From Pectobacterium punjabense (GTDB lineage: Bacteria; Pseudomonadota; Gammaproteobacteria; Enterobacterales; Enterobacteriaceae), in the NCBI RefSeq assembly GCF_012427845.1, contig NZ_CP038498.1:4650001-4714000 (forward strand): DNA of 64,000 nucleotides, read 5' to 3'. This document shows, piece by piece, positions 40,744 to 44,006 of this stretch. A model generated the notes under the pieces. It ran no database searches, was not told where the DNA came from, and saw nothing but the letters and a program-made list of their open reading frames with translations. A program made the translations under genes and the position numbers. The first letter of the stretch is position 1, and the number at the start of each line of letters is the position of its first letter.

Positions 40744-40776
40744 TGATATCAGCTATATTTTTAGATTTTAAAAATA

Positions 40777-41160
40777 CTATATTTTAACAAAAGTGACGGT
40801 TCCAATACGCGATTCTGGGTTTTCCAGTTGAGATATATATTTATTGAAAATAATTCTATTCCTTAGCAAGGAATTAGCTCCATTCAAAATAAACTTCTCT
40901 TCTTTAGATAAATTTTTAGATCCATTTATCTCTGTAGATACGTCAAGTTTATTATTTGTAAAATTTTCAATAAAAACATTAAAAACATTTTTCCCCGTTT
41001 GTGCGCTGACAAGAGAAACAGATGAATTATTTTTCTTATTATACTCGTCAGTGGCTGTTTTTAATATTTCATTGAAAACTCCATTTTTTTTATCACGTTG
41101 AATTTTCCATGTATTATCAACACCTTGGAGTCGAGAAAAACCATTGATATCATTAGACAT
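40777..41160 (-). CDS. Hypothetical protein, fourth gene of the C39 peptidase operon
   Basis: I do not recognise this 127-residue protein. It has no signal peptide and no membrane segment, is rich in asparagine, lysine and serine, and has no cysteine. It starts one base after the stop of the C39 peptidase gene, with a G-rich ribosome binding site (GGGGGG) inside the end of that gene. Low GC content matches the rest of the operon. It could be a cytoplasmic partner or immunity-type protein, but nothing in the sequence shows this. Confidence 0.65.
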   Translation of the reverse strand: MSNDINGFSRLQGVDNTWKIQRDKKNGVFNEILKTATDEYNKKNNSSVSLVSAQTGKNVFNVFIENFTNNKLDVSTEINGSKNLSKEEKFILNGANSLLRNRIIFNKYISQLENPESRIGTVTFVKI

Positions 41161-41161
41161 A

Positions 41162-41680
41162 CTACCCCCCTATTAATAATGCATACCCTTTCCATCGGTG
41201 CTTTAGTTCATAAATTGGCATATTTATCTTTCCAATTTCAGGATCATAAAGCGTTGCATTTTCTTTATTCATTCTATCAAGCACAACAAAGTGTATGTAT
41301 TCTGGCCCTTCGATAGGAATAATAATCGGTTCAGATATAACAAGTTCATTATCAATTTCAAATTTAACACCTTTAGCAGGGTATCCCAATCGCTCTACCT
41401 GCTGTTTTAAATCAAGAAGTGAGAATCCATTCTCTATCTTACTTCTCTCTGCTCCACTATCAGATCGAAAAATGATATCGGAGATTATTTCTATTTCTTT
41501 AATGTCGATGCCAAATTTCATATTCAAAAGAAGAGACAGTGCCGCAGGTCCACATGAAAAATCTGTAGTTTGCCGAGTAATCCCATCCATACGCAAATTA
41601 ACCCACCCTTTAATCGATGTGTTATAGGCATATGAATAGTTCATTATCAACATAATAAAAATGCACAATAAACTTTTCAT
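41162..41680 (-). CDS. Exported C39-family cysteine peptidase
   Basis: The 172-residue protein has an N-terminal signal peptide or anchor (MKSLLCIFIMLIMNYSYAY) and a C39 peptidase domain. The oxyanion-hole glutamine and catalytic cysteine are in RQTTDFSCGPAALSLLL (Q37, C43), the histidine in EYIHFVVLD (H130) and the aspartate in YDPEIG (D146). C39 domains classically cut double-glycine leaders inside ABC bacteriocin exporters; here the domain is free-standing and apparently periplasmic, as in FapD of amyloid systems. Its start overlaps the barrel gene's stop in TGATG. The first gene of the operon offers a matching leader, so it is the probable substrate. Confidence 0.82.
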   Translation of the reverse strand: MKSLLCIFIMLIMNYSYAYNTSIKGWVNLRMDGITRQTTDFSCGPAALSLLLNMKFGIDIKEIEIISDIIFRSDSGAERSKIENGFSLLDLKQQVERLGYPAKGVKFEIDNELVISEPIIIPIEGPEYIHFVVLDRMNKENATLYDPEIGKINMPIYELKHRWKGYALLIGG

Positions 41681-42897
41681 CAGAAATTCTTAGTCATTGT
41701 GATTCCAACAGTAGTACCTGTAGAATCCAAAGGAAAAGTTACTTCTGGCATAATACTCAATTTACTGGATAGTAGATAAGAGAAATAAAATGAAAGTAAC
41801 TCGGTTTCTGAATCAGTTCCTTTCATGGTAGTACCATAATACTTCATCTTATCGGTCCATGCGTAAGTAAACTTAGAACCAAAAGAAGACATGTTATTCA
41901 AAGAGTATCCAGACCCAAGATAAAGAGACACCGTATCGCCTACTTTTATTTTCTCTTTTCCTTTATTCGTTTCAAACGTTTTTTCGTATGAAACGCCACC
42001 AAAAAATGTCACAGGATCTACGATACGCACAAAACTAATCGCCGGAGTGACGCTCCAATAACCTTCACTGTTGTTCAACGGTTGTTTCCAGGAGTCCAGT
42101 TTTTCAACAAATTCTTTTCTTCCTGTCGGTATTCCTATAGAAAGAGACCCAGTAATTGCCGGAAATTCCATTGACTCTTTAAGAATTCGATATTGTATAC
42201 CCGTAGATATATCACCAACGTGTCCATTTTCCGCACTACGACTCCAGGCATTACTTGATACATCTTCAATCCGAGTATATGTATAAGGTAAATTAAACCA
42301 TACACTTAAATTTTCAGTCACACCAAATCGAGGAGACACATAAAGATATAGTTTTTTAACTGAATAACTAGAAACCTGATAAGGACCTTGCAATGGCAGA
42401 GATGAGATCGATTTGTATGTCCTATATTTAAATCCAAAATCAACATCCGTCTCACCTGGATTAAGAAGAACAGTATAATCTGACAGGTAACTAATCGGTG
42501 CGCTATACTCTTCTTGTTTTTTATCTATTTTTGAAATAACATTTTCTCTATCCCTGACGATATCAAAATCTTTAACATCTTCAAAATTAAAATCGTAACT
42601 TACATTATGACGAGTGATTTTTTGTTTGTTATCCGATTTTGTAAGATAGCCAGTGACACGATCACCATTATTTAATGCAACAGTAAACTCATTATCAGTA
42701 TTAATAAAAACAATGTCTTTTGCAGCTATCCTAATACTAGACTCATAAATGGTTCCAAAAACACAAACACCATTTTTAAAGGAGATAACATGCCCAGAAA
42801 TGTTATCCCCATTTTTTAACTCGATTGTATCCGCACTAGCTATTGGTCCAATGAAAAATAATGCTGCCGCACCAAAAATTCGCAGAATCATTATCAT
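41680..42897 (-). CDS. Outer-membrane beta-barrel protein with N-terminal repeat domain
   Basis: The 405-residue protein has a signal peptide (MIMILRIFGAAALFFIGPIASA). A soluble N-terminal part contains two similar units, TIELKNGDNISGHVISFKNG and TVALNNGDRVTGYL. A hydrophobic, beta-rich region from about residue 130 to the end has alternating strands, and the last residue is phenylalanine (TVGITMTKNF), the outer-membrane barrel signature. It may be the export pore or receptor of the operon. The start at 42897 overlaps the previous stop (TGATG); ATGs at 42891 and an upstream TTG at 42903 are alternatives. It resembles DUF3187/transporter-type barrels only loosely. Confidence 0.75.
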   Translation of the reverse strand: MIMILRIFGAAALFFIGPIASADTIELKNGDNISGHVISFKNGVCVFGTIYESSIRIAAKDIVFINTDNEFTVALNNGDRVTGYLTKSDNKQKITRHNVSYDFNFEDVKDFDIVRDRENVISKIDKKQEEYSAPISYLSDYTVLLNPGETDVDFGFKYRTYKSISSLPLQGPYQVSSYSVKKLYLYVSPRFGVTENLSVWFNLPYTYTRIEDVSSNAWSRSAENGHVGDISTGIQYRILKESMEFPAITGSLSIGIPTGRKEFVEKLDSWKQPLNNSEGYWSVTPAISFVRIVDPVTFFGGVSYEKTFETNKGKEKIKVGDTVSLYLGSGYSLNNMSSFGSKFTYAWTDKMKYYGTTMKGTDSETELLSFYFSYLLSSKLSIMPEVTFPLDSTGTTVGITMTKNF

Positions 42898-43505
42898 CAC
42901 CAACTTGTCACATTAATATTTCTAGTCCATTTAGCCCATCTAAGCGCTGTATTTGACATAGTTCCATCATTGTTTATAACACGATAATATTCTTCAACAA
43001 TAGGAGCATTAGCATCATTAAACCCTCCATTTTTACTTTTCGAGGCTCGCCATATATCACCTATTACGGTATATTTATTCCCGTTACCAGTATCAGTTAT
43101 CGTTATCGCACCTTTTTGGAAATACTCACTATTAGGAAAATAATTTTTGTGATCCTCGTCAACACCAAAATTATGTAACATATTTATATAATGGATACCA
43201 TAAAAAGGTTCCCTTTCAGTAATCGTCAGAAACCCTTCTAAAGGTGCTTTTATCCCAGGATTACCAGCCATATTAAGAGTCGAATATTTAGGGAATTTAA
43301 TATTTACCCATGGGTTTACATAACCAGATCCTGTTCCTGTCCATGGCTTTTTCGGTGGAAAAAGAGGCGGGTAAATAATACCAGGGATAGGCGTAATTAA
43401 ACCTTTCCCATGGATATTAGCAAGCTGAGCATCATTTAGTTCAGTGACAACAGCCTGAGCTGCTGTGGAAAAAAATAGCGCCATTAACACTATTTTTACT
43501 TTCAT
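42897..43505 (-). CDS. Exported protein with double-glycine-like leader after the signal peptide
   Basis: The 202-residue protein begins with a Sec signal peptide (MKVKIVLMALFFSTAAQA) and then VVTELNDAQLANIHGKGLI. This has the exact spacing of a double-glycine leader: L23, N24, Q27, L28, I31 and G33-K34 stand at -12, -11, -8, -7, -4 and -2/-1. A proline-rich linker follows (IPGIIYPPLFPPKKPW) and then a 150-residue domain of unknown fold, with no cysteine in the mature part. It is the first gene of the C39 peptidase operon and its likely substrate. The start at 43505 has AAGGATGATGAT upstream; an ATG at 43523 is rejected. I know no family for the mature domain. Confidence 0.7.
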   Translation of the reverse strand: MKVKIVLMALFFSTAAQAVVTELNDAQLANIHGKGLITPIPGIIYPPLFPPKKPWTGTGSGYVNPWVNIKFPKYSTLNMAGNPGIKAPLEGFLTITEREPFYGIHYINMLHNFGVDEDHKNYFPNSEYFQKGAITITDTGNGNKYTVIGDIWRASKSKNGGFNDANAPIVEEYYRVINNDGTMSNTALRWAKWTRNINVTSW

Positions 43506-43523
43506 ATCATCATCCTTGATCAT

Positions 43524-44006
43524 TTTAAATGAAAAATATTTTATTTAGTGCAAAAAGGAGGGGGAAGTCGCTCCCTGCAACTTTAATAAAATGACTATGA
43601 ATTCATCGAAGCCATTATATATCAAGAAAAATGATTTAATCTAGTTGAAATAAATCATTATCACGGGACTATTTTAATTTAATATAATTAACAAGGTAAT
43701 TATATTAAATTAGTGTTATAACAAACTCACACAGCATTATTTTTTATTAGAATAAAAATGATGGAATCCATTTTTTATAAGATAAAAAACATATTTAATT
43801 TAAAATTACCTTATATAAGGTCGCTATGATTGCCTTTTTCGAGACTATTTTCATCATTAATAATATTCTCACAAAGGGAAAACATCTGTCTGATGGGCTA
43901 TTTCATAACCTAAAAATCATGTGGACAAACGTTAGCAAACGTTTGCTTTCGACAAAGAGATCATTAAAATGCGCTCTTTGTCGTTTCAGGAACGCCAACT
44001 TACATC
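43524..44006. other. AT-rich divergent gap between the C39 operon and xanP
   Basis: This gap of 483 bases is very AT-rich at 43600-43820 and becomes average near xanP. It should hold the promoter of the C39 operon and that of xanP. A PurR-like operator lies at 43934-43947. The plus-strand frame at 43826-44065 runs across that operator and into xanP and is not a supported gene. Confidence 0.5.
43934..43947. promoter_or_regulatory. PurR-like operator upstream of xanP
   Basis: The perfect 14-base palindrome AGCAAACGTTTGCT carries the core of the PurR operator (GCAAACGTTTGC). It lies 60 bases upstream of the xanP start. Repression by PurR with hypoxanthine or guanine is the likely effect; this is inference from the motif. 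Confidence 0.65.

Follow-up and report, generated by a model that had tools for sequence, protein, structure and literature searches.

A UmoA-like exported protein, a FapF-like barrel and a C39 peptidase encoded together in Pectobacterium punjabense: a possible minimal Fap-type export cassette

The window, the whole stretch of 64,000 nucleotides analyzed here (Pectobacterium punjabense, contig NZ_CP038498.1, positions 4,650,001 to 4,714,000 of the forward strand), carries four tightly packed minus-strand genes at 40777-43505, designated P1 to P4, the first three of which resemble parts of the Fap system of Pseudomonas (FapA-F) and are considered here as a putative protein export cassette. P1/P2 and P2/P3 overlap at TGATG, and P3 and P4 are separated by one base. 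The genes are AT-rich, with a guanine-cytosine (GC) content of 0.29-0.36 per gene and 0.329 in the inserted stretch, against 0.564 for recG, 0.546 for the permease gene and 0.499 for the window. They lie between recG, whose product scored above the cut-off of its model, and a gene for an NCS2/xanthine permease (pbuX model, 414.6 bits against a cut-off of 414.15), both of which are on the plus strand. Sec-type N-termini were recognized by eye on P1, P2 and P3, and P4 has none as judged by eye. The packing, base composition, position and exported character of these genes had been described in an earlier reading of the letters alone (the sequence-only reading), and they were confirmed. The features are as follows.

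40744-43929, no strand: inserted stretch, from recG to the conserved region upstream of the permease gene, absent in 24 of the 24 other genomes of the genus
42897-43505, minus strand: P1, the putative cargo, 202 amino acids; UmoA model 1.4e-12 over residues 97-202, below the cut-off
43452-43505, minus strand: signal peptide of P1, Sec-type, residues 1-18 (AQA before V19), read from the sequence
43404-43451, minus strand: second leader of P1, VVTELNDAQLANIHGK, residues 19-34, with a predicted C39 cut after Gly33-Lys34
42900-43292, minus strand: UmoA-like domain of P1, residues 72-202, from hhalign with eight UmoA-type proteins
41680-42897, minus strand: P2, FapF-like outer-membrane barrel protein, 405 amino acids; PF13557 2.4e-5, above the cut-off
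42556-42831, minus strand: N-domain of P2, residues 23-114, predicted to be beta-rich, with ten short strands and a predicted local distance difference test score (pLDDT) of about 41-73 per block
41162-41680, minus strand: P3, stand-alone C39 peptidase with a Sec-type N-terminus, 172 amino acids; PF03412 1.2e-17, above the cut-off
40777-41160, minus strand: P4, orphan, 127 amino acids, without a significant family match

An in-frame ATG at 43523 would extend P1 to 208 amino acids, although its relatives favor the start at 43505, and an in-frame TTG at 42903 would give a 407-amino-acid form of P2.

P1 consists of a signal peptide, a second leader, a proline-rich linker and a C-terminal UmoA-like domain. 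The sequence LNDAQLANIHGK, followed by G, stands directly behind the signal peptide. The consensus of the double-glycine leaders of C39 substrates is LSxxELxxIxGG, and the leader of P1 fits this pattern except for Lys at position -1. The leader-bearing exported protein of the sequence-only reading is supported by this double-glycine-type leader. A strict form of the pattern was found in all 18 rows of the P1-family alignment (A3), in none of the eight UmoA-type proteins, and in 1 of 175 background exported open reading frames (ORFs). The leader is kept in these 18 relatives despite the varying length of the linker behind it. Comparison of P1 residues 72-202 with the eight UmoA-type proteins (six above the UmoA cut-off and two just below) by hhalign gave a probability of 99.3 and an E-value of 2.3e-20, and against the NCBIfam UmoA model P1 scored 47.7 bits (cut-off 200), in the C-terminal part only. 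P1 and the UmoA-type proteins also share a Sec-type N-terminus, as judged by eye. In contrast to P1, the UmoA-type proteins lack a second leader, and reading of N-termini in the flanks of their genes (about 1.5 kb) revealed neither a recognizable C39 gene nor a barrel gene; the FapD model had no match in the two UmoA-type genomes tested (G723 and G727). The leader, being present in the P1 family and absent from UmoA-type proteins, whose flanks hold no recognizable exporter, thus goes with the exporter and not with the UmoA domain. A search of PDB sequences with the P1 profile yielded nothing at an E-value of 1. According to passages of PMC5484520, UmoA regulates flhDC in Proteus, and umoA is termed a swarming regulator in an excerpt of PMC11599158. 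From this relationship, mature P1 would be expected to have an envelope or extracellular role that touches motility, and the site of action of an exported UmoA-like domain may be either the envelope or the exterior of the cell.

In the 172 amino acids of P3, the peptidase family alone was matched, with no ATP-binding cassette (ABC) or membrane domain. P3 matched the FapD model at 4.5e-24 (85 bits, far under the equivalog cut-off of 330) and the FilB model at 1.7e-19 (70.3 bits, cut-off 475), and most of the fap-like C39 proteins tested also score under the FapD cut-off. The comparison with FapD made by the sequence-only reading is supported, P3 being FapD/FilB-like at scores below the cut-offs of both models. 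Residues Q37, C43, H130 and D146, which we take to be the catalytic residues of C39, are invariant in all 15 rows of the P3 alignment (A2). The alignments omit P0001 and P0011, which are the window's own clusters, and A2 also omits P0026, which is partial, and P0027 (28% identity). In the PDB, the C39 domains of ABC exporters such as PCAT1 were matched (6mpz, 1e-10; 4ry2, 5.2e-9). The bacteriocin exporters of this type share with the present genes the peptidase family and the general double-glycine leader pattern, whereas P3, devoid of an ABC or membrane part, would cut in the periplasm after Sec transport and not in the cytosol.

Regarding P2, the FapF model was matched at 1.6e-16 (60.2 bits, cut-off 700), residues 223-388 matched the solved FapF structures (PDB 5o65, 5o67 and 5o68) at 2.1e-14 to 2.5e-14, and hhalign against a nine-row FapF-like profile gave a probability of 99.4. 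These matches specify the outer-membrane barrel of the sequence-only reading as one akin to FapF. The PTG triplet P257-G259, named as a conserved motif in passages of PMC6173800, is kept in all three aligned rows. In place of the trimeric coiled-coil N-domain of FapF, P2 has an N-domain predicted, with moderate-to-low confidence, to form beta strands. As a separate observation, residues 14-41 of the 407-amino-acid form weakly match Lepto_7_Nterm (NF047433) at 4.7e-5, below the cut-off, and such an N-domain is perhaps a module common to otherwise different envelope proteins.

The gene order P1-P2-P3 recurs, identically and at a different genomic place, in Enterobacter wuhouensis and in an Enterobacter metagenome-assembled genome (loci L005 and L006). 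There, P1 and P2 are five bases apart, P2 and P3 overlap by one base, and a convergent gene for an OmpR-type response regulator follows. P4 is missing behind P3 at both loci, so that the four-gene unit of the sequence-only reading is ruled out and a three-gene unit stands. P4, which had no significant match in Pfam, NCBIfam or PHROG, was found among 25 genomes of the genus in the window's own genome only, the other 24 also being without the cassette, and it is probably a local passenger outside the conserved unit. Among named organisms, Pectobacterium aquaticum and P. polaris have the closest relatives of P1 and P3, and further relatives come from Salmonella and metagenomes. P1 homologs numbered 10 in one search and 16 in another. 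In 7 of 16 P1-family clusters, the longest contig equals in size that of a C39 cluster by our own comparison, which suggests that the P1-family and C39 genes are linked in those seven. The three-gene unit is rare: P1 is present in the window's own genome alone among the genomes of 59 relatives, P1-type UmoA matches are likewise confined to it among 392 genomes of the family, and an Escherichia coli collection gave no match to the cassette by megablast or to the three-gene stretch of L006 in distant mode.

Stand-alone C39 genes elsewhere provide a comparison for the P1 leader. Besides the window's own, 25 strong places were found, 19 of which were fetched at length, together with genome G035. 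In all 19 fap-like loci (L041-L059), a comparable, looser leader occurs on the protein encoded behind fapD, for example LDSQELSSYRGG and LADGELAHLRGR, so that fap-like operons outside Pseudomonas share the same general leader type with P1. Among these 19 proteins, 15 passed a crude signal rule and 17 fit a loose pattern (those of L044 and L055 fall outside the pattern count). The leader is also present on seven genes at the FapB position, and Photobacterium sp. DA100, which was left out when the patterns were written, has it at both positions. L053 has matches to each of the FapB, FapD, FapE and FapF models at scores under the respective cut-offs, and the FapE model also matches at L119 and L125. 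At L042, matches to FapD and FapF were found for the peptidase and barrel but none for the three small proteins; the "FapE position" there is therefore positional. A class-level set of 16 further stand-alone C39 loci includes seven with a leader-bearing gene, all seven fitting the strict pattern; among the remainder, L128 has RGR where a truncated ORF begins, and eight have no such gene within about 1.5 kb. Of 129 exported ORFs lying no more than 4 kb from a stand-alone C39 gene, 25 fit the loose pattern, versus 9 of 175 others (Fisher 1.0e-4); 4 of the 129 (window, L005, L006 and L056) and 1 of the 175 fit the strict pattern. The P values are descriptive because the patterns were written after the leaders had been seen and "exported" was assigned by a crude rule of our own. 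Two of the nine others are fap-like genes of L057, whose C39 gene was missed by our own script. A leader profile trained on 24 fap-like leaders and run over 513 ORFs placed the held-out L052 and L057 and several FapB-position genes near the top; the neighboring C39 genes of L052 and L057 were placed from profile matches and fetched loci. A C39 locus with another arrangement was observed in G035 (L060:6341-8807), between insertion sequence (IS)-like transposase genes. Its C39 protein, which begins like a lipoprotein, is the only protein of the locus with a family match (FapD model, 2.4e-13). The other two are a small Gly-rich protein whose N-terminus is Sec-type and an exported protein of 296 amino acids, maybe a barrel; none of the leader patterns fit at this locus.

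Proteins of the DUF6160 family (PF19657) also appear to combine a signal peptide with an MTDxELxxVxGQ-type leader behind it, while their bodies differ. They differ from P1 in these bodies and in the many scattered genes, and the N-terminus of P1 matched DUF6160 at 0.038, below the cut-off. All three DUF6160 genomes among 143 genomes of the class have a stand-alone FapD-like C39 gene, compared with 15 of 143 overall (P 9.5e-4), the latter being our own count of open frames below 400 amino acids at E ≤1e-15, with the cut chosen afterwards and the window's genome included. In G780, a DUF6160 gene and a stand-alone C39 gene lie about 1-5 kb apart on one contig. G911 has 15 DUF6160 matches (L100, L103, L106, L109, L110, L112 and L114-L118), which are small exported proteins with a shared leader; their many genes are scattered over contigs, and a single stand-alone FapD-like C39 match was found. 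G819 has seven stand-alone C39 matches, followed at L136 by an exported 336-amino-acid protein without a family match.

The gene families, the leader and the recurrence of P1-P2-P3 are best explained if these genes form a minimal export cassette of the Fap type whose cargo is UmoA-like and non-amyloid, a reading to which a probability of roughly 60% is assigned. P1 would cross the inner membrane by Sec and lose its signal peptide after A18. In the periplasm, P3 would read the leader LNDAQLANIHGK and cut after Gly33-Lys34, such that mature P1 would begin with GLITP. The linker and UmoA-like domain may then pass through the FapF-like barrel P2 or be displayed by it; recruitment, which in FapF belongs to the coiled coil, would fall to the beta N-domain of P2. 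Cleavage and surface export of P1 are inferred from the sequence, which also suggests the P1 leader as a candidate signal for what FapD-type peptidases cut.

The cassette resembles Fap in its FapD-like C39 protein with a Sec-type N-terminus, its FapF-like barrel and its Sec-exported cargo. Unlike Fap, P1-P4 include no match to FapB, FapC or FapE at an E-value of 1, the cargo is UmoA-like, the barrel has a beta N-domain, and in the P1 leader, position -1 is Lys and position -3 is not Arg. Amyloid subunit models matched none of P1-P4, and a FapC search of the whole genome gave no match but gave none in any control genome either. The Fil system of Acinetobacter (FilB peptidase and FilC barrel) is likened to the cassette by the FilB match of P3, and FilC matched the FapF-like barrels of fap-like loci; the FilB score lies well below its cut-off, however, and no other Fil match was found among P1-P4. 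The sequence-only reading had proposed a separate periplasmic maturation and surface-export pathway for the 202-residue protein. This interpretation is partly supported, with cleavage and surface export of P1 as predicted steps. The UmoA-like domain of the cargo is an addition to it, and the comparable leaders behind fapD place the system closer to Fap than had been thought.

Several points weigh against this reading. The P1 leader has Lys instead of Gly at -1. The strict pattern was found in L056 alone among the leaders of L041-L059. On the fap-like leader profile, the P1 family scored -2.3 to 9.7, compared with 25 to 32 for the listed trained leaders, because P1 is without Arg at -3 and an aromatic residue at +1; the P1 and fap-like leaders thus agree in the general C39 pattern and not in the narrow profile. 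The structure models of P1 (mean pLDDT 50.6) and P2 (mean pLDDT 34.2, with the barrel part failed) were too poor for a fold search. PF13557 barrels also include presumed uptake channels. Barrels related to such channels are discussed in passages of PMC6173800. In the literature on FapD, passages of PMC5557850 describe the Fap proteins as having no canonical C39 sequences, while noting GG and GA motifs in FapE; this makes it doubtful that the reading of the P1 leader can simply be carried over to Pseudomonas. In favor of the cassette reading, the same passages report that FapD works in the periplasm and that its Cys is needed for FapC secretion in an E. coli assay. The target of FapD is called unclear there, and its substrate is called undetermined in passages of PMC6173800; no FapD substrate is named in the portions of PMC9268375, PMC11787515 and PMC10903470 consulted. 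Part of PMC5557850 singles out FapE as the one protein for which about 70 N-terminal residues went unseen.

Among the other explanations, the one that survives best, at perhaps one chance in a handful, is maturation without export: P3 would trim P1, the product would stay in the periplasm or at the outer membrane and regulate flagellar genes in the manner of UmoA, and P2 would be a partner, a sensor or a small-molecule channel. The regulation of flhDC by UmoA, as given in passages of PMC5484520, supports this explanation, as do the UmoA-type proteins that work without such an exporter recognized nearby and the breadth of the barrel family PF13557. The leader, however, is on P1 and not on UmoA, and the gene next to that for P1 encodes a barrel most closely related, among solved structures, to secretion pores. 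It is rather improbable that P3 mainly processes P2 or another target, for example in gating the pore, and that the P1 leader is not its substrate. Cleavage of FapF or FapE by FapD is considered in passages of PMC5557850, where the FapF linker, too, is said to be possibly cut; the P1 leader immediately follows the signal peptide in all 18 relatives and is kept despite variable linker length, which argues against such a role for P3. A contact-independent competition factor, in which P4 would confer immunity to an antibacterial P1 equipped with a leader of bacteriocin type, is very unlikely. Double-glycine leaders are typical of bacteriocins, the insertion is patchy and low in GC, and the orphan P4 lies directly behind P3, but P4 is missing from the P1-P2-P3 units of the two Enterobacter loci, the domain of P1 is akin to a regulator, and no toxin family gave a match at an E-value of 1 in Pfam or NCBIfam.

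The export cassette reading may also be widened, with a confidence somewhat short of even, to a general gammaproteobacterial two-leader route, in which a Sec signal would be followed by a double-glycine-type leader read by a periplasmic FapD-class C39 peptidase, with export via a FapF-class barrel. The clients would be amyloid Fap proteins, the UmoA-like P1 and, in trans, the scattered DUF6160 proteins, and the leader would be what FapD cuts. The cassette brings a single cargo together with a single peptidase and a single pore, and the cargo has a leader that looks readable by C39, which reduces the question of the FapD substrate to three small genes. If the reading is true, the Fap machinery would be a protein exporter not restricted to amyloid, and its cargo could be found by sequence. 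Passages of PMC6173800 describe fapD-fapF pairs in five more phyla, and the cassette suggests what these pairs may carry.

The gap between recG and the permease gene is about 165-289 bp in all 24 other genomes of the genus and 3263 bp here (sizes by our own arithmetic), which marks the stretch as an insertion, probably of horizontal origin. A mobile or phage origin was tried and rejected: the P3 alignment A2 had no relative in viral contigs, P4 had none in phages and P1 none in plasmids, and inspection of the repeats of the stretch revealed no recognizable mobile-element ends. Two distant Photobacterium records were found in the P3 search. Promoter-like sites in the stretch number 19, near the chance level of 15.9 in shuffled sequence, and terminator-like sites number 4 versus 1.6 (standard deviation 1.3). 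In the AT-rich region upstream of P1, a perfect 16-nucleotide inverted repeat composed of A and T only, with a 6-nucleotide loop, is located at 43675-43712.

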